Shown here piece by piece: positions 1 to 35,954 of a stretch of 64,000 bases of DNA (positions are counted from its first letter, which is position 1; every line of letters begins with the position of its first letter). The notes beneath the pieces are model-generated. The model saw only the letters and a list, made by a program, of their open reading frames with translations. It did not search any database and was not told the origin of the DNA. Position numbers and translations under genes: made by a program. The stretch is from Hyunsoonleella aquatilis. GTDB lineage: Bacteria; Bacteroidota; Bacteroidia; Flavobacteriales; Flavobacteriaceae. The stretch is from positions 1 to 64,000 of the forward strand of contig NZ_JACNMF010000003.1 of assembly GCF_014270105.1 (NCBI RefSeq). Reading direction: 5' to 3'.

Positions 1-2
1 TA

Positions 3-92
3 GCAGTGGCAAACAAGTTGTTGAAACAGGCCTTTGCCATAGCAAAATCAGGAAGGCCTTACGATGAAAACTTTGTTTCGAGATTGGTTTAA
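3..92 (+). CDS. IS110-family transposase, C-terminal end (partial)
   Basis: An open frame enters from the left edge and stops with TAA at 90-92, giving about 29 residues. The ending (AVANKLLKQAFAIAKSG, then RPYDENFVSRLV) resembles the C-terminus of IS110/IS1111-type (DEDD) transposases. This family assignment is from memory and rests on a short fragment. The gene ends about 30 bp from the conserved core of a partial attC site. Members of the IS1111-attC group are known to insert specifically into integron attC sites, so the position fits. The rest of the element lies outside the window. Confidence 0.55.
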   Translation, partial: AVANKLLKQAFAIAKSGRPYDENFVSRLV

Positions 93-117
93 AAAAGCTT
101 GTTTTTTAACTCAGTTC

Positions 118-127
118 TTTGTTAGGT
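118..127 (-). repeat. partial attC site (attC0), R'' core only
   Basis: The core GTTAGGT on the plus strand (ACCTAAC on the cassette strand, 121-127) lies 9 bp beyond the stop codon of the lipoprotein gene. It matches the start of that cassette (GTTAGGTATA at 698-704 and beyond). The inner attC motif seen elsewhere (TTATAC next to the core) is missing, and transposase-linked DNA follows. I read this as an attC interrupted by an insertion sequence. Confidence 0.6.
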
Positions 128-136
128 ATAGTTGTT

Positions 137-688
137 TTATTCAGAGCAATATACATATCCTACTTGTCCTCCTAAATACCCTTGCTCGTTCGTTGACAAA
201 CCAAGAAAATATTCAGCACTTAATCTTTCAGAAACTTTGTCAATGGTACATTCACACAATTTTTCACTATTCGGTCTTTTTGATAGAGCATAATTACAAA
301 TGTCTAAAAATTGCTTTTTTTCACTTTCAGTCCAAGGAATATCGTTCTGACTCTTTATATAAATATCCCATAATTTAAAAGCATCTGGTCGCCCTTTGCT
401 TTCAGCTTTTAGTTTACTCGCAACAGTTGAGTATTCCAAGAATGAAGGACATAGTTCGTGAAGCTTTCTTGAAATATTTTCTTCTTTTTCAGAATCGTAA
501 TTCACGAGTTTAATTTGAACGGTTTTTATATAAATCATTCGGTTACTTTGATAACTATTGTTTTTAGAATATTGTTTTGAGAACTCCTCACATAATTCCA
601 AAGCAATTTCCTTATCAGTTCTTGTGTCTTTTTGTTGCGCACAACCCAAGCTTGTTATTAAAAGAAAAAATATTAATGTGTGTTTCAT
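137..688 (-). CDS. cassette-encoded small lipoprotein of unknown function
   Basis: This encodes 183 residues from the ATG at 688; the longer open frame to 808 runs into the attC and has no better start. The N-terminus is a lipoprotein signal, with a hydrophobic stretch followed by SLGCAQQ in which the cysteine would be lipidated. The rest is charged and soluble, with cysteines scattered in the second half (ELCEEF, HELCPSF, LDICNY, KLCECT) that could form disulfides in the periplasm. I do not recognise the family. It is the eighth and last cassette, with its ATG 10 bp from the attC boundary, and it has no promoter I can point to. Transcription probably depends on read-through from upstream cassettes. 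Confidence 0.75.
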   Translation of the reverse strand: MKHTLIFFLLITSLGCAQQKDTRTDKEIALELCEEFSKQYSKNNSYQSNRMIYIKTVQIKLVNYDSEKEENISRKLHELCPSFLEYSTVASKLKAESKGRPDAFKLWDIYIKSQNDIPWTESEKKQFLDICNYALSKRPNSEKLCECTIDKVSERLSAEYFLGLSTNEQGYLGGQVGYVYCSE

Positions 689-697
689 ATCAATTAT

Positions 698-830
698 ACC
701 TAACGGCTCTGTATAAAGTTTGTTGCGTGATTTCAAGCTAAAAGTAAGCAAATTATTACTGATTAGAAAGTTCGCTAGAACTTTCGCAAGTAAGCAATTA
801 GCTAGCAATAAAATTTATACCTTGTTAGGC
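698..830 (-). repeat. attC1 (133 bp, type B)
   Basis: The cores are GCCTAAC (824-830, plus strand GTTAGGC) and GTTAGGT (698-704). The inner complementary pair GTATAAA/TTTATAC lies just inside. A central hairpin at 766-785 has 8-bp arms GAAAGTTC/GAACTTTC around a 4-nt loop. It separates the TrmH-like cassette from the lipoprotein cassette. Confidence 0.85.
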
Positions 831-837
831 ATAGTTA

Positions 838-1458
838 CTATTCTGCTATTATTTCAGGGTCAATTTTTCGACCTCTTTTGTTTTCGGCTTGATATTCTCT
901 CCTTTGCTTTGTTATTTCATAAAGTACAATTCCAGTACTTGTTGCTAGATTCATACTTTCAATAATTCCAGCCATTTGAATTTGGACACAGGCTTGACAA
1001 TTTTCAACCGCTAACTCACTAATTCCGCGAGCCTCATTTCCAAACCAAACTGCTAATCTTTTTTGAGTATAATTTCCATTCTGTAAATAAAGATTTGTTT
1101 TTCCTTTTGTGTGCGGTGAAGTTGCTATTGAAGTAAAACGCTTTTTTTCTAAATGTTCAATACATTCTTCTGTACTGGAAAAGGTTTTCACAAAACTCCA
1201 TTTTATTGCTGAAACTGATGGTTTTAAAAGTGATTTTCTCTCACGCATTTCCTCCCAACTTTCTGGCAACCTTTTCTTTCCGTCAATGATATAAAGTTTT
1301 TCAACTCCGAGTGCGTTTATATTCCTTACAACAGTTGCGATATTTTTAATATCAGTTGGTTCTTCGAGAACAGCGATAAGATTTTTACATCTTAAATCCT
1401 TGATTTCATCAGCCTTTTTTCTTAAACTGGACTTAGTATTTTCGTTCTGTTTATTCAA
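838..1458 (-). CDS. TrmH/SpoU-family RNA 2'-O-methyltransferase (cassette)
   Basis: This encodes a 206-residue SPOUT enzyme expected to transfer a methyl group from S-adenosylmethionine to a ribose 2'-OH of tRNA or rRNA. The three SpoU motifs are visible: NIATVVRNINALGVEKLYII (motif 1 with the conserved N and R), AVWFGNEARGIS (motif 2), and IQMAGIIESMNLATSTGIVL (motif 3 with the knotted SAM site). Length is close to bacterial TrmH (about 230 aa). No extra N-terminal substrate domain is present. The stop lies 8 bp from attC1. A housekeeping-type RNA methyltransferase is unusual integron cargo; it may change translation or protect an RNA target. The exact substrate cannot be told from sequence. 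Confidence 0.85.
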   Translation of the reverse strand: MNKQNENTKSSLRKKADEIKDLRCKNLIAVLEEPTDIKNIATVVRNINALGVEKLYIIDGKKRLPESWEEMRERKSLLKPSVSAIKWSFVKTFSSTEECIEHLEKKRFTSIATSPHTKGKTNLYLQNGNYTQKRLAVWFGNEARGISELAVENCQACVQIQMAGIIESMNLATSTGIVLYEITKQRREYQAENKRGRKIDPEIIAE

Positions 1459-1482
1459 TTGACGAATGTTGGTTTTAATTAT

Positions 1483-1615
1483 GCCTAACGGTCTCGTATA
1501 ACCGTCAGTTACGGGTTAATATGCGTTAATTTTTGGTTTAGCACTGACATTAGCAATTCCGAGTGGATTCGGACGCAGTCGAATCCGCCGTAATTGCGGT
1601 TATACATTGTTACCT
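1483..1615 (-). repeat. attC2 (133 bp, type A)
   Basis: The cores are at 1609-1615 and 1483-1489. Inner arms GTATAACCG/CGGTTATAC are perfectly complementary, and a central hairpin has GGATTCG/CGAATCC arms. It is nearly identical to attC4 and to the remote attC8. Confidence 0.88.
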
Positions 1616-1623
1616 GCTGGCTT

Positions 1624-2262
1624 TTATATTTTTTCATTTCCAAATTCGTTATTAAAATCCCTAACTCTTTTTTCTGGATATTCGTATTCTGCATTCATAA
1701 GCAAGTCTCTCCAATCAGTTCGAGTCAGTTCAATCATTTTTTCCAGATGATTTATGTCTTTGTTTCCAGAAAATATTAATGCTCGGACAATTCTGTGACT
1801 TCTAAATTCTTTATTGGATTTAATTAACTCTTGAATTTTCCTTTTCGCTTCTCCAGAGTTCTTTCCGTAATTAGATTCAAGTTTTTTTATGATGTCAGCA
1901 GGATATAAATTCAGATTAAGTGTTTTTCGGTCAGAATCCAGTTCCAATTTTAAATCAGGATTTATAATTTCAATTATTTTTCCATAACCTATAATTCGAC
2001 TTCCCTCGCAAAACTTAAATTCCAAATTTTCATAAAGTCGTTTTGAAAAGTATTCAGTCCCTAAAATTGCGATTTCAGCCTTTACCTTTTCTCCAGGTTC
2101 AACAATTTCTTTTCCGATATAAGTTTGATTTCCAGAAGTCAAATATTCAGGATAATTGTCGAATTCAATATGCGGTCTGTAATTCGAATGCGCAGGTGTT
2201 TTTCTGCCACCTTGTTCTGATGTCAGAAATTCTAATTCAGCTATGAAGTCAAGTTGTTTCAC
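1624..2262 (-). CDS. EF-Tu domain-like protein (cassette)
   Basis: This encodes 212 residues. The first ~110 resemble a C-terminal beta-barrel domain of elongation factor Tu: an opening strand (DFIAELEFLTSEQGG), RPHIEF in place of the RPQFYF-type strand, EPGEKVKAEIAI in place of the MPGD-NV strand, then FKFCEGSRIIGYGKIIEI corresponding to the REGGRTVGAG strand. No GTP-binding domain is present (no P-loop or NKxD). The C-terminal ~100 residues are helical and unknown. It could bind an EF-Tu partner, imitate EF-Tu, or be an independent small fold; the role is unproven. Start ATG is 18 bp inside the cassette boundary. Homologues are often labelled as EF-Tu-like proteins. Confidence 0.75.
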   Translation of the reverse strand: MKQLDFIAELEFLTSEQGGRKTPAHSNYRPHIEFDNYPEYLTSGNQTYIGKEIVEPGEKVKAEIAILGTEYFSKRLYENLEFKFCEGSRIIGYGKIIEIINPDLKLELDSDRKTLNLNLYPADIIKKLESNYGKNSGEAKRKIQELIKSNKEFRSHRIVRALIFSGNKDINHLEKMIELTRTDWRDLLMNAEYEYPEKRVRDFNNEFGNEKI

Positions 2263-2280
2263 GTAATTTTTTCAGCTTGC

Positions 2281-2411
2281 AGGTAACGGTCTAGGCTATG
2301 AGTAGTTGCGTGGTTTAGCATTAAATTTAGCAAGTACACACCAAACTGAAAATCTGCGAGGATTTTCAGAAGTAGGCGAGAACAAGCAATTACTTATAGC
2401 CATTGTTGTAA
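2281..2411 (-). repeat. attC3 (131 bp, type B)
   Basis: The cores are at 2405-2411 (plus GTTGTAA) and 2281-2287 (AGGTAAC). The central hairpin has arms CTGAAAATC/GATTTTCAG, differing from other type B sites by paired changes. Confidence 0.85.
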
Positions 2412-2422
2412 GCAGTATTTTT

Positions 2423-2950
2423 TTAGAAGTTAATTTCATCTCTTTTGCAATACCAATTCGGGTCACAACCTGTCGTCACACATCCACCAGTTTTATATTC
2501 TTTTTCTTTTTTCTCTTCTCTTTTTTTTGTTATTTCCGCAATAAGTCCGTAAGAAATTGGAATAACTTGGTCATCTTTTTTACAAACTGGGCAAGTTTTG
2601 TTTTCTTTTGATTGGTCATATTTACAAGACAATGAGTAAGGAATTTCTATTTCGACCGTTTCGTCAGGCTTCAAAAATCCGATTATGGTCAATTGTCGCA
2701 TATATGAGTGAGGTTCAGTCCTAATTCGGATTGAGTCAGACTCAAGATTATGAAATGAAAAATTCAGATTTTTGTCAACAATTGTAGTTTTTTCAATTCC
2801 GTTTATCTCAAGGATAACTTTAGTGTTTTCAGCAATCAATACCGCTTCTTCTGGAATTTCCGCAATTATTTTTCCGTTAATTACTCCGTTTTGAGCAATA
2901 CAGGATAAAAATCCGATTAAAATTAATATTGTAGAAAAGGTTTTTCTCAT
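2423..2950 (-). CDS. cassette-encoded secreted protein with CPVC motif
   Basis: This encodes 175 residues with an N-terminal signal sequence (hydrophobic ILILIGFLSC, then IAQN), possibly a lipoprotein with the cysteine at LSC. Residues ~20-110 look like a beta-rich domain. Near residue 120 is TCPVCKKDDQVIPISYG, a Cys-x2-Cys motif like short Bacteroidota proteins that carry a CPxC-x-K-D-x-V-P-I signature. A second cysteine pair follows near the end (GGCVTTGCDPNWYC). The function is unknown. The cysteines could bind metal or form disulfides. The stop lies 11 bp before attC3. It belongs with a group of small exported proteins encoded in this array (neighbours at 137, 3101 and 3694). Confidence 0.7.
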   Translation of the reverse strand: MRKTFSTILILIGFLSCIAQNGVINGKIIAEIPEEAVLIAENTKVILEINGIEKTTIVDKNLNFSFHNLESDSIRIRTEPHSYMRQLTIIGFLKPDETVEIEIPYSLSCKYDQSKENKTCPVCKKDDQVIPISYGLIAEITKKREEKKEKEYKTGGCVTTGCDPNWYCKRDEINF

Positions 2951-2955
2951 ATTGC

Positions 2956-3088
2956 TTACAACGGTCTCGTATAACCGTCAGTTACGGGTTTATATGCGTT
3001 AATTTTCGGTTTAGCACTGACGCTTGCAATTCCGAGTGGATTCGGACGTAGTCGAATCCGCCGTAATTGCGGTTATACATTGTTGTGT
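2956..3088 (-). repeat. attC4 (133 bp, type A)
   Basis: The cores are at 3082-3088 and 2956-2962. The body is almost identical to attC2, with the GGATTCG/CGAATCC hairpin and GTATAACCG/CGGTTATAC arms. Confidence 0.88.
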
Positions 3089-3100
3089 GTTCGTACTTTT

Positions 3101-3538
3101 TCATTCCAATGTCATTTTCAATACTAATTTCATTGGTTGATTCTTTCCGTCACTGTTTCGTTCCCAATAATAAAAATCGTATCGTTCACTTTTATTTTTT
3201 TGTCCAAATTCAATTAAATCCAAAAGTCCGAAAGATAACTTGTCCCAATATTCGTCAGATTCCGTTATTCTTAATTTCCGTTTTTTTTCATCACGAACGA
3301 ACAAAATGTATTTGCAATTTGGACATCGAGTATCTTTTCCATAGCGGATTGAAATTGTGTCAGATTCTTTGATTTCAGATTTGTTTATCTTGATATTTAA
3401 GTCATTAGAAACAGAATTAAATTTCGCGATTACTTTATCGTTCTTATAAACGTGCCAATAGTCCAAAGTATCCAATTCAGTACTAAATCCTTTGAAGGAC
3501 AAAGTCAGAAGTAATATGATAATTATTTTTCTCAGCAT
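3101..3538 (-). CDS. cassette-encoded small secreted protein with CPNC motif
   Basis: This encodes 145 residues. A signal peptide is clear: Lys-rich start (MLRK), hydrophobic core IIIILLLTL, then SFKGFS. The mature part is strongly charged. The motif RCPNCKYILFV around residue 72 is a Cys-x2-Cys pair, paralleling the CPVC motif of the adjacent cassette although the proteins do not otherwise look alike. The C-terminal half contains aromatic-rich YDFYYWERN. I do not recognise a family. Expected location is the periplasm or outer surface. The ATG is 17 bp from the cassette boundary, so there is no room for an own promoter downstream of the recombination point. Confidence 0.7.
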   Translation of the reverse strand: MLRKIIIILLLTLSFKGFSTELDTLDYWHVYKNDKVIAKFNSVSNDLNIKINKSEIKESDTISIRYGKDTRCPNCKYILFVRDEKKRKLRITESDEYWDKLSFGLLDLIEFGQKNKSERYDFYYWERNSDGKNQPMKLVLKMTLE

Positions 3539-3554
3539 TGTTTTCGGGTATGAC

Positions 3555-3686
3555 GCACAACGGTCTAGTGTATGATTTCGTTGCGTTTTTAAGCACTAAA
3601 GTTAACAAATAAATCACGAATAGAAAGTCCGCGAGGACTTTCGTAAGTAGGCTTTAACTAGCAATGAATTATACACATTGTTGTAA
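3555..3686 (-). repeat. attC5 (132 bp, type B)
   Basis: The cores are at 3680-3686 (plus GTTGTAA) and 3555-3561. The central hairpin has GAAAGTCC/GGACTTTC arms with a 4-nt loop. Confidence 0.85.
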
Positions 3687-3693
3687 AACGTTT

Positions 3694-4542
3694 TTATTTT
3701 TCTCGTTTAAAAATTATCGAGTTTTCTGAATCAAATTCAATTGGACGTTTTTCTTCAAAATTTATAGCAAATTCCATTGTATCATTATCAATAAATTTAG
3801 CAATACAAAGTAATTTTTTTTGTTTTCCACTTTCTAACATAGTCACTATTAAGTCAACTTTTATAGGATTTGTTTTACTATCTATTTCATAGGTCATATT
3901 GCCTTTTTTCCCTTTTTGAACAAATTCTTTTCCGCCCATAATTTGTCCCTGAACTTCGAAGTATGCATAACCTTCAGAATCAAAATTCAGATAACCAATT
4001 TCTTTTTCATCTTCTCCAGTCCATCTTCCAATGAATTTTGTTTTATCATTTTCAATGTTATTAAATTCTAATTTAGTCCATAATCGAGATTTAACAACCT
4101 TCTTTTTATATTTTGCTGGTCGGACTTTTATTTGTTCCGTTGCTTGCTTTATTATTTTATCAATTTCATTTGATTGTGGATATGATTTAACTTTTATGTC
4201 AATTATTTCCGCTTTTTCAGTTACAGTCAGATAAACATAAACATTACCTTTAAATTCCGTTTCAGAATTCAGTTTTTCGCTTATTAGTCCATTTAGAATT
4301 TTTTCTGCACAAGCAGTTTGTTCTTTTTCAGAAATTCCGCTTTCACAATCATTTTCAAATGGCAATTGCGTCAGAATTGCATAATGATAAATTCCATCTT
4401 TTTTCTGTTTGAAAGGTTTTAATTTATATCCTTTTTCAGTCGAATCGTCTGCGTCTAAAAAATGTCCTTTCGGAATTTGTCCAATCGCAAGCATTGGAAT
4501 CAGAAGTAAAATTGTCAGAAAGTTTAATTTGTATTTCTTCAT
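3694..4542 (-). CDS. cassette-encoded secreted protein with TonB-like C-terminal fold
   Basis: This encodes 282 residues starting with a signal peptide (KKYKLNFLTILLLIPMLAIG, cleavage after the glycine or so). Residues ~60-155 (NVYVYLTVTEKAEIIDIKV ... IIKQATEQIKVRPAKYKKK) resemble the TonB C-terminal / energy transducer module found in many Bacteroidota periplasmic proteins. The final ~110 residues (FIGRWTGEDEKEIGYLNFDS to the end) look like a lipocalin-like beta domain. Both assignments are by pattern only. No transmembrane anchor beyond the signal is visible, so it is probably periplasmic rather than a true TonB. The cassette boundary lies 22-28 bp upstream of the ATG. Confidence 0.65.
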   Translation of the reverse strand: MKKYKLNFLTILLLIPMLAIGQIPKGHFLDADDSTEKGYKLKPFKQKKDGIYHYAILTQLPFENDCESGISEKEQTACAEKILNGLISEKLNSETEFKGNVYVYLTVTEKAEIIDIKVKSYPQSNEIDKIIKQATEQIKVRPAKYKKKVVKSRLWTKLEFNNIENDKTKFIGRWTGEDEKEIGYLNFDSEGYAYFEVQGQIMGGKEFVQKGKKGNMTYEIDSKTNPIKVDLIVTMLESGKQKKLLCIAKFIDNDTMEFAINFEEKRPIEFDSENSIIFKREK

Positions 4543-4563
4543 TTTGTTGATTCGGTAAATGTT

Positions 4564-4694
4564 TTACAACGGGCTCGGCTATGAGTAGTTGCGTGGGTTA
4601 GCACTTAATTTTACAAGTACACACCAAGTTGGAAATTCCTGTGGAATTTCCAAAGTAGGCGATAACAAGCAATTACTTATAGCCATTGTTAGGC
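4564..4694 (-). repeat. attC6 (131 bp, type B)
   Basis: The cores are at 4688-4694 (plus GTTAGGC) and 4564-4570. The central hairpin has GGAAATTCC/GGAATTTCC arms. The last 22 bases of the neighbouring gene lie inside this site. Confidence 0.85.
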
Positions 4695-5395
4695 ATTGTT
4701 TTTATTTTTTCTATTCCAATTTCGACTATCACTTTTTTGTAGTCAATAAGATTGGAATCATTATCTAATATTTCTTGCTCTTCATCAGTCAGTTCATCAT
4801 AAGGTTTACTGTCAGATTTTCGGATTTCAATTTCTCTATCTGCAATAAAATCATCGTTGTCGTTCCATCCTTTAATTTCTCCAATATCTTGAATTCTTTT
4901 GAGTTCTTTATAAGGAAGTTTATCAGGGTTTTTGAAATCAAAAAAAACTACATCGTATGGGCAAGCCCAATAACATCCTTCAACTGCTAAAACTTGACTG
5001 TCTTTTGAGGGCATTGCATTTACCCAACAGAAACCGTGTCCGTCAAATCCTGACTCAGGAAAATAATTTTGGGTTATTCCCTTAGTCAGATTTACAACTG
5101 TTTGACCTTGATAATCTTCTCCGCACAGAAGGTATTCATTTCCGTTTGCGTGCTGAATCCAAGAATACCAAAAGTGAGAATAGTTTCGTTTCACATCTGC
5201 AATGACCTTATCATTTTTACTATTCTTTATAATTCCTCGTGAATATTCCCAAGTATTTTCCCCTGTTTTGTATGATGAGATTATCAGATAAAAATTCCCA
5301 GATGGTGAATAAATCTTTTCAGATTCATCAGTTCTATTTTTCGGTTTGAAAAAACCTAAAATTTCATCTCTCCATTCTTTGTATTTACTGTTCAT
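4673..5395 (-). CDS. cassette-encoded 240-aa protein, stop codon inside attC
   Basis: This encodes a soluble, acidic protein of 240 residues with no signal peptide. Residues 25-190 hold repeated beta-strand/aromatic patterns (SPSGNFYLIISSYKTG, YSHFWYSWIQHANGNEYLLCGEDYQG) that suggest a beta-propeller-like or WD-like fold, typical of uncharacterised cytosolic Bacteroidota proteins. The family is not identified. The reading frame continues through the attC core: the last residues MPNNGYK are encoded by GCCTAAC and the following attC bases, with the stop at 4673-4675. If this cassette were excised and joined elsewhere, its tail would still be encoded because the attC travels with it. Confidence 0.75.
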   Translation of the reverse strand: MNSKYKEWRDEILGFFKPKNRTDESEKIYSPSGNFYLIISSYKTGENTWEYSRGIIKNSKNDKVIADVKRNYSHFWYSWIQHANGNEYLLCGEDYQGQTVVNLTKGITQNYFPESGFDGHGFCWVNAMPSKDSQVLAVEGCYWACPYDVVFFDFKNPDKLPYKELKRIQDIGEIKGWNDNDDFIADREIEIRKSDSKPYDELTDEEQEILDNDSNLIDYKKVIVEIGIEKIKTMPNNGYK

Positions 5396-5405
5396 CTCAA
5401 ATAAT

Positions 5406-5536
5406 GCCTAACGTTTATGTATATGATTAGTGGCGTGTTTAAGCATTTAATTTAGCAAATAAAAACCGAATAGAAAATCCGCTAGGATTTTCGTAAGTAA
5501 GCTAAAACTAGCCATTAATTATATACTGTGTTGTGT
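5406..5536 (-). repeat. attC7 (131 bp, type B)
   Basis: The cores are at 5530-5536 (plus GTTGTGT) and 5406-5412 (GCCTAAC). The central hairpin has GAAAATCC/GGATTTTC arms with loop TAGC. Confidence 0.85.
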
Positions 5537-5554
5537 GTAGTTTTTTTATTCCGC

Positions 5555-5890
5555 TTATTGTTTTTCAAGGTTTTTCTTGATTCCGAGTTTTATTAAATTC
5601 AGAATTCCCAATGCTGGTAAATACATAAAAATTCCGATTATTAAATATGTATAAGTTGTTCCTGCAACAAAACTGTCAAATTTAAAGTCCGCTGAATTCC
5701 ATAACCAAGTCAGAAGTATTAAAATTAGTCCGATTACTCCTTGAATTATTAAGGCTTTATTAATTGTTTTTATCAGTCCGATAAAGTTGAAGGATTTCCA
5801 AAGTCCGTTTTTTCGAGCATTCCAAATTATTGGAAGTCCGAAAAATATTATGACTAATATTGTTACAATTTCTATATCAGGAACAATCAT
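5555..5890 (-). CDS. cassette-encoded small inner-membrane protein
   Basis: This encodes 111 residues with three probable membrane segments: ~5-24 (EIVTILVIIFFGLPIIW), ~47-65 (ALIIQGVIGLILILLTWLW), and ~78-100 (TYTYLIIGIFMYLPALGIL). A short basic loop (KNGLWKSFN) joins the first two. The C-terminal tail is basic (KKNLEKQ). The family is not recognised. It is the second gene of the first cassette, starting only 3 bp after the barstar-like gene, so both are translated from the same transcript and move as one unit. It could be a partner of the barstar-like protein, but that is only inferred from pairing. Confidence 0.7.
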   Translation of the reverse strand: MIVPDIEIVTILVIIFFGLPIIWNARKNGLWKSFNFIGLIKTINKALIIQGVIGLILILLTWLWNSADFKFDSFVAGTTYTYLIIGIFMYLPALGILNLIKLGIKKNLEKQ

Positions 5891-5893
5891 TTT

Positions 5894-6184
5894 TTAATCT
5901 ACTGCAATTATTAAATTCGGTTTTTCTCCTTGCTCTATTTTTCTATAATTGACAAAAGCTCCACACTCTAAAATAGCATTTAATAATTCACGTTTATTTT
6001 CTTTTAGAAACTTACCATTCTCAATTTGCAACAATGTTGGCTTTTCAGTCAATTCATCAACACAGTCAATCCAAGCATCCATATTTTCTCCGTAATAATC
6101 TGGAAAATTCAGTTCGGATTTAAATTCAGAGTGAAAAGAATTCCAATCAGTTAGTTTTTTACCATCGATTTTCAATGTTGTCAT
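5894..6184 (-). CDS. barstar-like ribonuclease inhibitor (first cassette)
   Basis: This encodes 96 residues matching the barstar fold in length and pattern: the first strand (LKIDGKKLTDWNSFHSEF), then the core LNFPDYYGENMDAWIDCVDEL, which corresponds to the conserved FP-x-Y-x-G-x-N-x-D/A-W helix, and a C-terminal strand (KPNLIIAVD). Barstars bind and block extracellular ribonucleases such as barnase. No ribonuclease gene is present nearby, so this would act as an orphan immunity protein. It is the cassette nearest attI, the position transcribed most strongly in known integrons. The ATG is about 20 bp from the recombination point. Confidence 0.85.
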   Translation of the reverse strand: MTTLKIDGKKLTDWNSFHSEFKSELNFPDYYGENMDAWIDCVDELTEKPTLLQIENGKFLKENKRELLNAILECGAFVNYRKIEQGEKPNLIIAVD

Positions 6185-6203
6185 TTCGTTTTTCTCAAAT
6201 TAC

Positions 6204-6284
6204 ACACAACACGTAAATATCTCTGTATTTTTACGTATCGTAAAAATAACATTAATTGTTAAAAAACCTACGTGTTTGTTAGGA
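6204..6284 (-). other. attI recombination site (attC-like architecture)
   Basis: The first cassette begins at the GTT of 6208-6210 (minus strand). Upstream, the arms CACGTA/TACGTG and a core TCCTAAC (6278-6284) mirror the layout of an attC, with the pair CCTACGTG/CACGTA flanking the centre. In between is a 10-bp-arm perfect hairpin (6226-6248, TATTTTTACG / CGTAAAAATA, 3-nt loop), and several TACGT direct or inverted copies that could be integrase-binding sites. That this is the array's entry site is inferred from its position beside the integrase. Confidence 0.7.
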
Positions 6285-6307: not shown

Positions 6308-6354
6308 ATTTTGTATATCAAATTTAGTATTTTTACCAAAATGATATACAAAAT
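6308..6354. promoter_or_regulatory. inverted repeat before the integrase gene and predicted cassette promoter Pc
   Basis: A perfect 13-bp inverted repeat (ATTTTGTATATCA at 6308-6320, TGATATACAAAAT at 6342-6354, 21-nt spacer) ends 6 bp before the integrase ATG, suggesting operator control of integrase expression or an integrase-binding site. On the minus strand the same segment holds TTTG (6349-6352) and TAAATTTG (6319-6326) spaced 22 bp, fitting the Bacteroidota -33/-7 consensus and pointing toward the cassettes. This would be the cassette promoter. Confidence 0.55.
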
Positions 6355-6360
6355 ACCCGT

Positions 6361-7428
6361 ATGGATTTAAAGCGCTATACCTTTACACCAACAGTACATC
6401 GCCAAAAAAAAGTAATTTTAATTGGTTTCCCATATCATAATGATTTAAAACATGCTTTGCTAAAAAGATTTCCTTCTGCAAAGTGGAGTGCAACAAAAAA
6501 ATCCTGGTACCTGCCAGATTTGCCTTCAGTAAGGGAGGCGCTAAGTTTAAAAGCACAAAATACGGTTTTAGATAAGGCGGCCAATATCCACCCTGTTAAT
6601 CGGCAGGCTTATTTAGACTTAAACCAACAGCTTGCACTTAAACAGTATAGCCCTAATACCAAACGTGTCTATCTTTCAGAATTTTTGCATTTGCTCAATT
6701 TACTTGATGATTTTCCTGTTGCAGACCTATCGCCCAAACGTTTAAAAGATTATTTTCTCTATTGTATTAAAGGGGAAAAAATGAGCGAACGAAAACTTAA
6801 CGGAAAAATTAATGCCATAAAATTTTACTTCGAGCAGGTACTGCATCGGCCAAAAATGTTTTTTGACATCCCCCGACCCAAAAAACCACTAACCCTGCCC
6901 AAAATGTTAAGCAAATCTGAAGTGAAACGATTATTTGACGTTACTACAAATCTTAAACATAAAATTGCGTTAAAGTTATCTTATGGCATGGGGCTTAGGG
7001 TATCAGAGGTTGTAGGCCTAAAAATCACTGATATTGATAGTAAGCGCATGGTGGTGCATATAAAGGGTGCTAAAGGTAAAAAAGACCGCTATGTACCGTT
7101 ACCTGAAAGTGTGCTTCCCGATCTAAGGGAATACTATGTGGCTTACAGGCCAAAACTATTTCTTTTAGAGGGGCAATATGGCGGCGCGTATGCCAAATCA
7201 AGTTTGCAACAAGTATTTAAAAATGCAATGGTAAAGGCAGGGGTAAAAAAAGATATAGGCATACATGGGTTAAGACATTCTTACGCCACCCATTTATTGG
7301 AATCTGGAGCCGACATGCGATTTATTCAAGAGCTTTTAGGACATAATTCTATAAAAACTACCCAAGTGTACACAAAAGTTACACCCAGAAGCATTTCAAA
7401 AATCAAAAGCCCCCTGGATAATTTATAG
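6361..7428 (+). CDS. integron-associated tyrosine recombinase without the IntI-specific insert
   Basis: This encodes 355 residues. Catalytic residues are all present: Arg213 (GLRVSEVVGL), Lys238 (KGAKGKKDRYVPL), His302-x2-Arg305 (IHGLRHSYATHLL), His328 (LLGHNS) and Tyr337 (TTQVYTK). The spacing from the first Arg to the HxxR box is 89 residues, against 131 in IntI1 (Arg146 to His277), so the extra IntI domain that holds extrahelical attC bases is missing. Residues ~90-165 form a SAM-like core-binding domain. Residues 1-65 are an additional N-terminal module (FTPTVHRQKKVILIGFPYHN ... KWSATKKSWYLPD). The C-terminus ends SPLDNL, close to the SPLDAL of IntI1. The gene lies beside attI and diverges from the array, as in classical integrons. 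It may be a Xer-like enzyme adapted to folded attC sites. Confidence 0.9.
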   Translation: MDLKRYTFTPTVHRQKKVILIGFPYHNDLKHALLKRFPSAKWSATKKSWYLPDLPSVREALSLKAQNTVLDKAANIHPVNRQAYLDLNQQLALKQYSPNTKRVYLSEFLHLLNLLDDFPVADLSPKRLKDYFLYCIKGEKMSERKLNGKINAIKFYFEQVLHRPKMFFDIPRPKKPLTLPKMLSKSEVKRLFDVTTNLKHKIALKLSYGMGLRVSEVVGLKITDIDSKRMVVHIKGAKGKKDRYVPLPESVLPDLREYYVAYRPKLFLLEGQYGGAYAKSSLQQVFKNAMVKAGVKKDIGIHGLRHSYATHLLESGADMRFIQELLGHNSIKTTQVYTKVTPRSISKIKSPLDNL

Positions 7429-34570: not shown

Positions 34571-35806
34571 ATGAAAAAACAATTTTTATTCTTTTTAATA
34601 ACAATTTTAAGTCTTAATTGCTATTCACAAATCACTTTTGAAAAAGGATATTACATTAATAATTCAAATCAAAAAATTAATTGTTTAATCAAAAATATTG
34701 ACTGGAAAAGTAATCCAACCGAATTTGAATATAAACTATCCGAAAATGGCAGACTACAATTGGCAAATATAAATTCGGTTAAAGAATTTGGTATTAACAA
34801 TATCTCAAAATATGTAAGAAATAATGTAAATATTGATAGGTCTAGTAAAAACCTCAGTAATCTAAGTAATCACAAAACACCAATATTTAAAGAAGAAGAG
34901 CTTTTTTTAAAAGTATTAGTTGAAGGTAAGGCATCTTTATATCAATACGTCGACGGCAACTTAATACGATACTTTTATGATAATAGCAGTAAATCTAATA
35001 TTGAACAATTAATCTTTAAATTCTATAAAACCTCAGTAAATAAAGTTGGTAAAAATAATAGATTTAGACAACAACTCTGGAGTAATTTAAAATGTCCAAG
35101 CTTTAAAATAAGTAAAGTTGAAAGTCTAAATTATAAAAAAAATGATTTGGTTGATTTTTTTGTAGAATATAACAACTGTAATAATCAGGAATATATCCAT
35201 TTTGAAGAAAAACAAGAAAGAGATTTATTCAATTTAACCATAAGACCTCGCTTAAATAGTTCTTCATTAAGCACGCAAAGTTCTCTTTCATATATAAGAG
35301 ACATTGAATTTGAAAATAAAATAGGGTTTGGAATCGGATTAGAAGCTGAAGTTATATTGCCTTTTAATAAGAATAAATGGTCAATTGTAATTGAGCCAAC
35401 TTACAGAACAAATTATAAATCTATAAAAAAATCTATAATAAATAATGTTTCTGAAGGCACATTAATAGCTGAAGTTGATTACAGTTCTATTGAAGTAGCG
35501 TTAGGTTTAAGACATTATTTCTTTCTTAATAATGCCTCAAAAATATTTGTGAATGCCTCCATTATTTTTGATTCAAGTTCAGATTCATCAATAGATTTTA
35601 CTGGAGATACTGGTAGTGCAGGAAATATAAGTTCATTAGAAATTAAATCTGAAAGTTCGTTAGGTATTGGAGTTGGCTATAAACAAAATGATAGATATAG
35701 TTTAGAGATTAGATATTTAACGAATAGAGAAATTTTGAGAAATATTGGAGCTTGGAGCTCAGACTATAAAACATTATCAATAATACTTGGATATTCAATA
35801 TTCTAA
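34571..35806 (+). CDS. orphan cassette gene: secreted, outer-membrane-like protein
   Basis: This encodes 411 residues, AT-rich like the array genes. A signal peptide is clear (MKKQFLFFLITILSLNCYSQ). The N-terminal ~180 residues are a mixed soluble part (LVEGKASLYQYVDGNLIRYF). The C-terminal ~180 residues are amphipathic beta-strands (IGFGIGLEAEVILPFNKNKW, VALGLRHYFFLNNASKIFVN) and the last residue is Phe after ILGYSI, as in outer-membrane beta-barrels. The family is not named. Function unknown; it resembles small porin-like proteins of Bacteroidota. Its ATG is 52 bp from the recombination point, and a promoter was not found in it. Confidence 0.75.
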   Translation: MKKQFLFFLITILSLNCYSQITFEKGYYINNSNQKINCLIKNIDWKSNPTEFEYKLSENGRLQLANINSVKEFGINNISKYVRNNVNIDRSSKNLSNLSNHKTPIFKEEELFLKVLVEGKASLYQYVDGNLIRYFYDNSSKSNIEQLIFKFYKTSVNKVGKNNRFRQQLWSNLKCPSFKISKVESLNYKKNDLVDFFVEYNNCNNQEYIHFEEKQERDLFNLTIRPRLNSSSLSTQSSLSYIRDIEFENKIGFGIGLEAEVILPFNKNKWSIVIEPTYRTNYKSIKKSIINNVSEGTLIAEVDYSSIEVALGLRHYFFLNNASKIFVNASIIFDSSSDSSIDFTGDTGSAGNISSLEIKSESSLGIGVGYKQNDRYSLEIRYLTNREILRNIGAWSSDYKTLSIILGYSIF

Positions 35807-35815
35807 AAAAACAAC

Positions 35816-35946
35816 ACATAACAAAGTATCCGCAATTACGGCGGATTCGTCTACGTCCGAATCCACCCGGAATTGCTAACGTCTGTGCCAAACCGAAAAT
35901 TAACGCATATTAACCCGTAACAGGCGGTTATACGAGACCGATAAGC
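35816..35946 (+). repeat. attC8 of the orphan cassette (131 bp, type A)
   Basis: The body matches attC2 and attC4, including ACGGCGGATTCG and the paired CCGAATCC. The distal core reads GATAAGC rather than GTTRRRY, so that site is mutated. Confidence 0.88.
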
Positions 35947-35954
35947 GCACCACT

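Follow-up and report, generated by a model that had tools for sequence, protein, structure and literature searches.

Classical integrons are built around the integrase IntI and its I2 helix. Passages of one study (PMC7790495) state that cassette capture requires this helix, that it confers single-strand recombination and that it has been found in no other protein. According to the same passages, I2 docks the extrahelical bases of attC, and direct causal proof of its role is unavailable since deletion of I2 kills IntI1. In an excerpt of PMC2727003, the extrahelical bases of a classical attC site are two or three partnerless bases on the R''-L'' arm. Two integron studies select on the IntI-specific part of the protein (portions of PMC9668308 and PMC2426708), so that a class of integron lacking I2 would be missed by design.

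Here we analyse the 64 kb at the start of contig C15 of Hyunsoonleella aquatilis (genome of 3.93 Mb in 21 contigs), referred to below as the window. Like chromosomal (sedentary) integrons with IntI, such as the Vibrio cholerae superintegron, the window holds an R''-L''-L'-R' cassette array with a G/TT boundary, a divergent integrase gene and an attI-like site, and the whole predicted model of its integrase is closest to the IntI4 structure 2a3v, followed by archaeal Xer proteins. Unlike these integrons, it has an integrase with no I2 and with an extra N-terminal module, its sites mostly carry no extra bases on the L'' arm, and its R boxes are looser than the classical consensus RYYYAAC/GTTRRRY. 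The enzyme resembles XerC/XerD and archaeal XerA in fold, in catalytic residues and in having no I2, and NCBIfam NF040815 is among its best-scoring models. XerC and XerD differ from it in forming a separate clade and in acting on dif, not on cassette arrays. The IS91-associated tyrosine recombinases on plasmids of Leisingera and Sphingomonas have a related catalytic domain (35-41% identity); they adjoin an IS91 transposase gene and, judged by length, have no N-terminal module. No match to our attC model, R2, was found in the fetched flanks of these recombinases, and no IS91 transposase was found by Pfam among the nine window cassette proteins, neighbouring ORFs being judged by eye only. As in CALIN elements, the attC cluster is accompanied by no detectable IntI. 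Unlike a CALIN, it adjoins an integrase, one that would be missed by a tool requiring the IntI-specific domain (part of PMC9668308).

Identity of the integrase

The gene beside the array is intact and encodes a tyrosine recombinase of 355 aa (Table 1). Direct reading of the translation confirmed the original prediction that the six catalytic residues R213, K238, H302, R305, H328 and Y337 are all present. The six residues are aligned in 12 of the 13 members of clade A, which consists of the window integrase and 12 close relatives; the remaining row, a broken copy that ends early, misses the last two. R213 and H302 are 89 residues apart. In an alignment of 101 recombinases this spacing was 89 in all 13 clade-A members, and 89-90 in all 21 members of clade B (more distant members of the family). 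It ranged from 89 to 94 among 26 phylum-level relatives and from 92 to 96 among 21 XerC/D-type proteins, and it was 131 in every one of 20 IntI, so the predicted shortfall of 42 residues relative to IntI1 is exact. The IntI set in this alignment comprised 19 of 20 IntI loci and a plasmid IntI1, one over-long ORF being excluded. ORFs above 470 aa (L175, L209) were left out, L201 had no usable ORF, and 26 of the 28 phylum-level loci entered.

The integron integrase model TIGR02249 matched the window integrase at 187.9 bits, below its cutoff of 265 bits. In the own-genome search the match was split into profile positions 5-177 and 239-315, which indicates that the IntI-specific stretch between the two pieces is absent. 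The spacing and the split, sub-cutoff match both bear out the predicted lack of the IntI-specific additional domain (I2). The protein also scores under the curated cutoffs of XerC and XerD.

The cassette array and the attI-like site

Seven complete attC-like sites of 135-137 bp lie to the left of the integrase gene on the opposite strand, and an eighth is cut by the contig end (Table 1). When the ends of each cassette are joined as a circle, the end bases are complementary at 6/6 positions in six of the seven complete cassettes and at 5/6 in the other one, and these complementary R'/R'' bases vary from cassette to cassette. Together with the stem pairing described below, this places the attC-like sites that had been proposed far beyond chance. 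The first cassette carries a barstar-family gene at 5894-6184; a Pfam scan of the eight other cassette proteins of the window returned nothing of the barnase type.

Contig C20 is full of further attC-type sites, and others are located close to the ends of C1, C12 and C18, on the small contigs C2-C5 and inside other contigs, so that the array is probably longer than seen and broken by the assembly. On C20, one cassette is present as exact 890-bp copies in tandem, and another as exact 937-bp copies with one cassette between them, in each case from G/TT to G/TT. Such identical copies suggest recent movement; they could also be an effect of the assembly.

A block resembling ATATTTACGTGTT marks the boundary of the first cassette in the upstream regions of the 13 clade-A members; it varies, with GAT instead of GTT in L082 and a diverged sequence in L087. 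Past the GTT these sequences largely differ, L081 and L085 sharing one start. A scan of 44 upstream regions, among them those of 31 of the 80 named loci, found the strict attI-like motif in 24, at 144-171 nt before the gene, versus 0.14% of shuffled sequences; the motif was absent from 20. Across the 44 regions, information falls after the GTT save for an A eleven bases further. Each of the 13 aligned clade-A upstream regions contains a version of the inverted repeat TTTTGTATATCA..TGATATACAAAA, which is probably an operator.

Several loci outside the array were also noted. At L082/L230 (Pseudozobellia thermophila), a clade-A integrase whose attI position reads GAT, not GTT, has no attC match; this is perhaps an empty platform, and a contig end lies 1.7 kb away. 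A lone cassette on contig C17 (L031:5496-6934) starts with GTTGTGTGTAATTTGAG and ends in a matching attC, as expected for an off-target insertion. It carries a 426-aa recombinase-like gene whose HxxR motif appears degraded by eye, and a recombinase-like gene of equal length (426 aa) lies among attC sites in genome G014 (L135). In the window itself, a single attC-type match (84.9 bits) at 35814-35948, just past a 411-aa ORF (34571-35806) and far from the array, is perhaps another stray cassette.

Table 1. Features of the integrase locus and the cassette array (window coordinates).
Feature	Positions	Strand	Content or basis
I2-less integrase gene, 355 aa	6361..7428	+	ORF, domain matches, residues, alignment spacing
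N-terminal module, residues 1-62, predicted bbabb-a fold	6361..6546	+	Structure prediction; weak DUF5710-like matches
Core-binding SAM-like domain Phage_int_SAM_4, residues 87-164	6619..6852	+	Domain match
Catalytic domain Phage_integrase, residues 182-341, without I2 insert	6904..7383	+	Domain match and alignment
Inverted repeat TTTTGTATATCA..TGATATACAAAA, directly upstream of integrase (probable operator)	6309..6353		Clade-A upstream alignment
attI-like core ATATTTACGTGTT; crossover inferred at G/TT, G at 6210	6208..6220	-	Upstream conservation
attC 1	5404..5538	-	
attC 2	4562..4696	-	
attC 3	3553..3688	-	
attC 4	2954..3090	-	
attC 5	2279..2413	-	
attC 6	1481..1617	-	
attC 7	696..832	-	
attC 8, R'' side only, rest cut by contig end	1..131	-	R'' against the cassette's R' 6/6
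Cassette 1	5413..6210	-	Barstar-family protein and 111-aa protein; R'/R'' 6/6
Cassette 2	4571..5412	-	240-aa protein; R'/R'' 6/6
Cassette 3	3562..4570	-	282-aa protein; R'/R'' 6/6
Cassette 4	2963..3561	-	145-aa protein; R'/R'' 5/6
Cassette 5	2288..2962	-	175-aa protein; R'/R'' 6/6
Cassette 6	1490..2287	-	212-aa protein, sub-cutoff EF-Tu D3 match; R'/R'' 6/6
Cassette 7	705..1489	-	SpoU-family methylase; R'/R'' 6/6
Cassette 8, incomplete	1..704	-	223-aa protein

Structure of the attC-like sites

A model-free alignment of 24 sites from the own genome showed compensatory change in 8 of 12 predicted stem pairs. Among 134 model-fitted sites, 95.9% of stem cells were paired, and double changes numbered 326, compared with 91 in shuffled controls and no more than 57 after sliding of the partners. 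Three of these sites were dropped from the scoring of extra bases and mismatches. Of the 131 scorable family sites, 2 had an extra base on the L'' arm, 54 had extra bases on the L' arm and 75 had neither. The extrahelical bases that IntI-type attC sites carry on the R''-L'' arm are thus mostly missing here. Of the 272 stem mismatches in the same sites, 219 have A on L'' facing G on the reversed L', which puts an A·C mismatch on the top strand and a T·G pair on the bottom one. The central spacer is unequal, with ~3 nt on the R'' side and ~6 nt on the R' side.

As a comparison, family and IntI-type sites were collected with the same model-free detector, which reads away from the integrase and demands chained R'/R''. 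The detector is strand-aware; a strand-blind version, which scored palindromes on either strand, was discarded. Extra L''-arm bases were present in 16 of 17 IntI-type sites, 6 of 34 clade-A sites, 4 of 37 clade-B sites, 2 of 21 other own-contig sites and 3 of 27 named-locus sites. The bottom strand was the more stable one in 29/34, 36/37, 20/21 and 27/27 of these four family sets, which share some genomes, and in 8/17 IntI-type sites. Input to the detector included the window with 11 of the 12 other clade-A loci and 16 of the 21 clade-B loci; family sites came from 6 of 12 clade-A, 8 of 16 clade-B, 4 of 6 own-contig and 9 of 40 named loci. The IntI-type controls came from 3 of 16 flanks (both flanks of eight IntI genes), and two of the 17, both at L308, are doubtful because R2 places sites on the opposite strand at this locus; they may be a family-type site read backwards and were kept in the counts. 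These results add a new point: not only the enzyme but also the sites differ from the IntI type, in their few extra L''-arm bases and their one-sided A/G mismatches.

Linkage of attC-type sites to the integrase family

No IntI above the curated TIGR02249 cutoff was found in the own genome or in 38 closed genomes of the host family, Flavobacteriaceae. Across the phylum, 84 of 296 sampled genomes have an IntI above the cutoff, and none of those 84 is of the host family. In a sample of 60 tyrosine recombinases from ten closed genomes, attC-type matches lay within 6 kb of 8/8 recombinases of the integrase family versus 3/52 others (Fisher p 6.4e-8), with labels that were not fully blind since the arrays near the G113 and G068 recombinases were already known. 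One of the three non-family cases is a 426-aa recombinase-like gene among attC sites.

R2 matches with E up to 0.01 flank 11 of the 12 other clade-A integrases and 16 of 18 clade-B integrases. With E up to 0.001 they are found at 27 of 40 named loci (22 of the 23 that have 2 kb or more of upstream sequence) and in just 11 of the other 40 named loci, and with E up to 0.1 in 11 of 28 phylum-level relatives, for which the flanks were short. One locus with 10 kb upstream, L242, has no R2 match. In clade A the array is located upstream and on the opposite strand; at 40 named loci, 2 of 99 R2 matches are downstream (L237). With the exception of L106, clade-B loci with matches have the array on the downstream side, running in the same direction; the match is downstream as well in L187 and L188, which the tree places beside clade A.

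At the level of genomes, attC-type matches occur in 224 of 249 from the host family versus close integrase relatives (E 1e-60) in 83 of 249, and closed host-family genomes also show more distant integrase relatives. A Chryseobacterium sp. plasmid (NZ_CP041688.1, L312) carries a family integrase with three attC-type matches downstream. In genome G253, a true IntI gene (L308) has family-type attC matches upstream, at a distance of a few kb, and this genome also has a family integrase.

The original prediction held that the window integrase serves the attC-like sites. Based on the linkage, the attI-like core and the lack of an IntI above the cutoff, the array is very probably served by this integrase, as far as sequence can tell. 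No other recombinase found in the genome outscores it on the IntI model.

The N-terminal module

The predicted addition of an N-terminal module of ~65 residues held up. Residues 1 to ~62 form a confidently predicted domain (pLDDT ~90) of two strands, a helix, two strands and a helix. Foldseek matched no solved fold to it (best E 0.42), and a profile of the module found nothing below E 0.1 among PDB sequences. In a Pfam search of 32 module sequences with E up to 1, weak matches were obtained to DUF5710 in 18 (best 1e-5), to DTC in 9 (best 0.00096) and to HARP in 1 (0.074). A HARP identity was considered and not supported, given that single match in 32, the profile result and the lack of a Foldseek match under E 0.4; a search of the open-access literature, preprints aside, found no paper pairing 'HARP domain' with 'tyrosine recombinase'. 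Conserved F, S, W/Y, D and R positions were seen in an analysis of 31 sequences taken from the 75 of alignment A4, which holds 75 of 80 loci (out are L226, L264, L285 and L294, with stop codons, and L223, untranslated).

All 13 clade-A integrases and 18 of the 21 in clade B have the module, as counted with a profile built from most of the same integrases (L119, L121 and L123 were outside it). The module is lacking from the array-linked integrases L106 (genome G215) and L096/L103, which are identical copies in genome G159. Because G159 also carries a longer family member, L106 is the cleaner case. Array-linked integrases commonly have the module, though not all do, with L106 at least as an exception.

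Phylogeny of the integrase

In a careful tree of 34 rows, support was 93/94 for the integrase family, 100/100 for IntI and 100/99 for Xer (XerC/D), and a grouping of IntI with six rows, four from clade A plus two sister rows of these, was rejected (p-AU 0.0014); the 34 rows were picked from 105 after quick trees had been seen. The quick trees, with more rows, did not reject IntI with the window integrase (p-AU 0.292), IntI with clade A (0.521), Xer with clade A (0.781) or IntI with the IS91 type (0.734). These searches were poor and missed better trees, and our conclusions rest on the careful tree. There, the window integrase lies outside the IntI clade and apart from the Xer clade, and the firm grouping with ordinary XerC/D that would have spoken against the original prediction does not appear. 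The family, IntI and the IS91-associated recombinases form a fork without a resolved order, which fits one origin of cassette recombination before I2 as well as two origins.

Discussion

At the level of sequence, the window shares with IntI-type integrons an attC array with R'/R'' complementarity and an L'/L'' stem, and an attI-like site beside the integrase. Given this platform anatomy, the G/TT cassette boundary, paired stems with compensatory changes, exact duplications and the linkage to the enzyme, we consider it likely that this is a chromosomal integron with an integrase of an I2-less lineage, in which cassettes would be captured and released via the attI-like core and attC hairpins. 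The integrase would recombine the core, ~150 bp upstream of its own gene, with these hairpins. The substrate would be the folded single bottom strand of attC because this strand folds more stably in nearly all scored sites. The site counts suggest that the strand is chosen by T·G wobbles (A·C on the top strand) rather than by extrahelical bases, possibly aided by the unequal central spacer. With the strand chosen in this way, no I2 helix would be needed.

Other explanations of the locus have to be weighed against this. The array could be moved in trans by a classical IntI, as a CALIN with the neighbouring recombinase as a bystander. attC clusters without an integrase are well known (parts of PMC8618304 and PMC9668308), true IntI is common elsewhere in the phylum, and genome G071 has attC-type matches yet none of its three listed recombinases belongs to the family. 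We nevertheless regard this as very improbable given that IntI above the cutoff is missing from the own genome and the 38 closed host-family genomes, that the attI-like core keeps a near-fixed distance from window-type integrases and that family recombinases are so much more often linked to sites. Also, the sites are unlike the IntI type, and R2 has no matches in L299 and L300, where IntI-type sites chained. A relic of a formerly active array has some precedent in the family, where the G050 copy is broken by two TAA, the G025 copy is broken as well, and 4 of 79 related coding stretches carry a stop, but the window integrase is intact and the identical cassette copies suggest recent movement, which makes a defunct system extremely unlikely here.

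A different question is how the sites are recognised. Double-stranded recombination of attC and attI, as by an ordinary Xer-type recombinase and with the hairpins as incidental palindromes, would suit an enzyme that is I2-less like Xer and the IS91-associated recombinases. It is hard to reconcile with an L stem maintained by compensatory changes, with mismatches that are so strongly one-sided and with R'/R'' complementarity renewed cassette by cassette, and we judge it distinctly unlikely. The original prediction favoured a folded site and took the N-terminal module as a possible second, separately evolved hairpin reader in place of I2. The presence of the module in most clade-A and clade-B integrases, its conserved positions and its weak DUF5710, DTC and HARP matches are in line with that. 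However, array-linked members lack it, it resembles no solved fold or PDB sequence, and sites mostly without the extra bases that I2 holds call for no substitute holder. A replacement of I2 by the module is therefore unlikely, and an integrase without I2 acting on sites mostly without what I2 holds appears to be the better-supported reading. The module is probably an accessory DNA-binding domain, not an essential hairpin reader.

We found no earlier description of an I2-less integron system in the open-access literature (preprints aside), and none appears in the consulted portions of PMC9024848, PMC8618304, PMC9668308, PMC2727003, PMC7790495, PMC8352920, PMC10963911 and PMC2426708. As a comparison, a 2022 IntegronFinder survey names, in the portion seen, one Bacteroidetes species with a complete integron (PMC9024848), whereas at least one attC-type match is carried by 224 of the 249 host-family genomes. 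An I2-less family that serves cassette arrays makes the claim that I2 is necessary testable. The broader proposal, for which we see about even chances, is that the window represents a second class of integron, widespread in Flavobacteriaceae and beyond in Bacteroidota, with single-strand recombination that uses neither I2 nor extrahelical bases on the L'' arm and with a choice of strand by wobble polarity. Intermediates from before I2 are said to be lacking (a passage of eLife 2020), and I2-less integrons may preserve such a pre-I2 state. The plasmid relative with its three attC-type matches suggests that the system may move between hosts. A second class of this kind would mean a large, unseen pool of cassettes and a second solution to the choice of single-strand sites.
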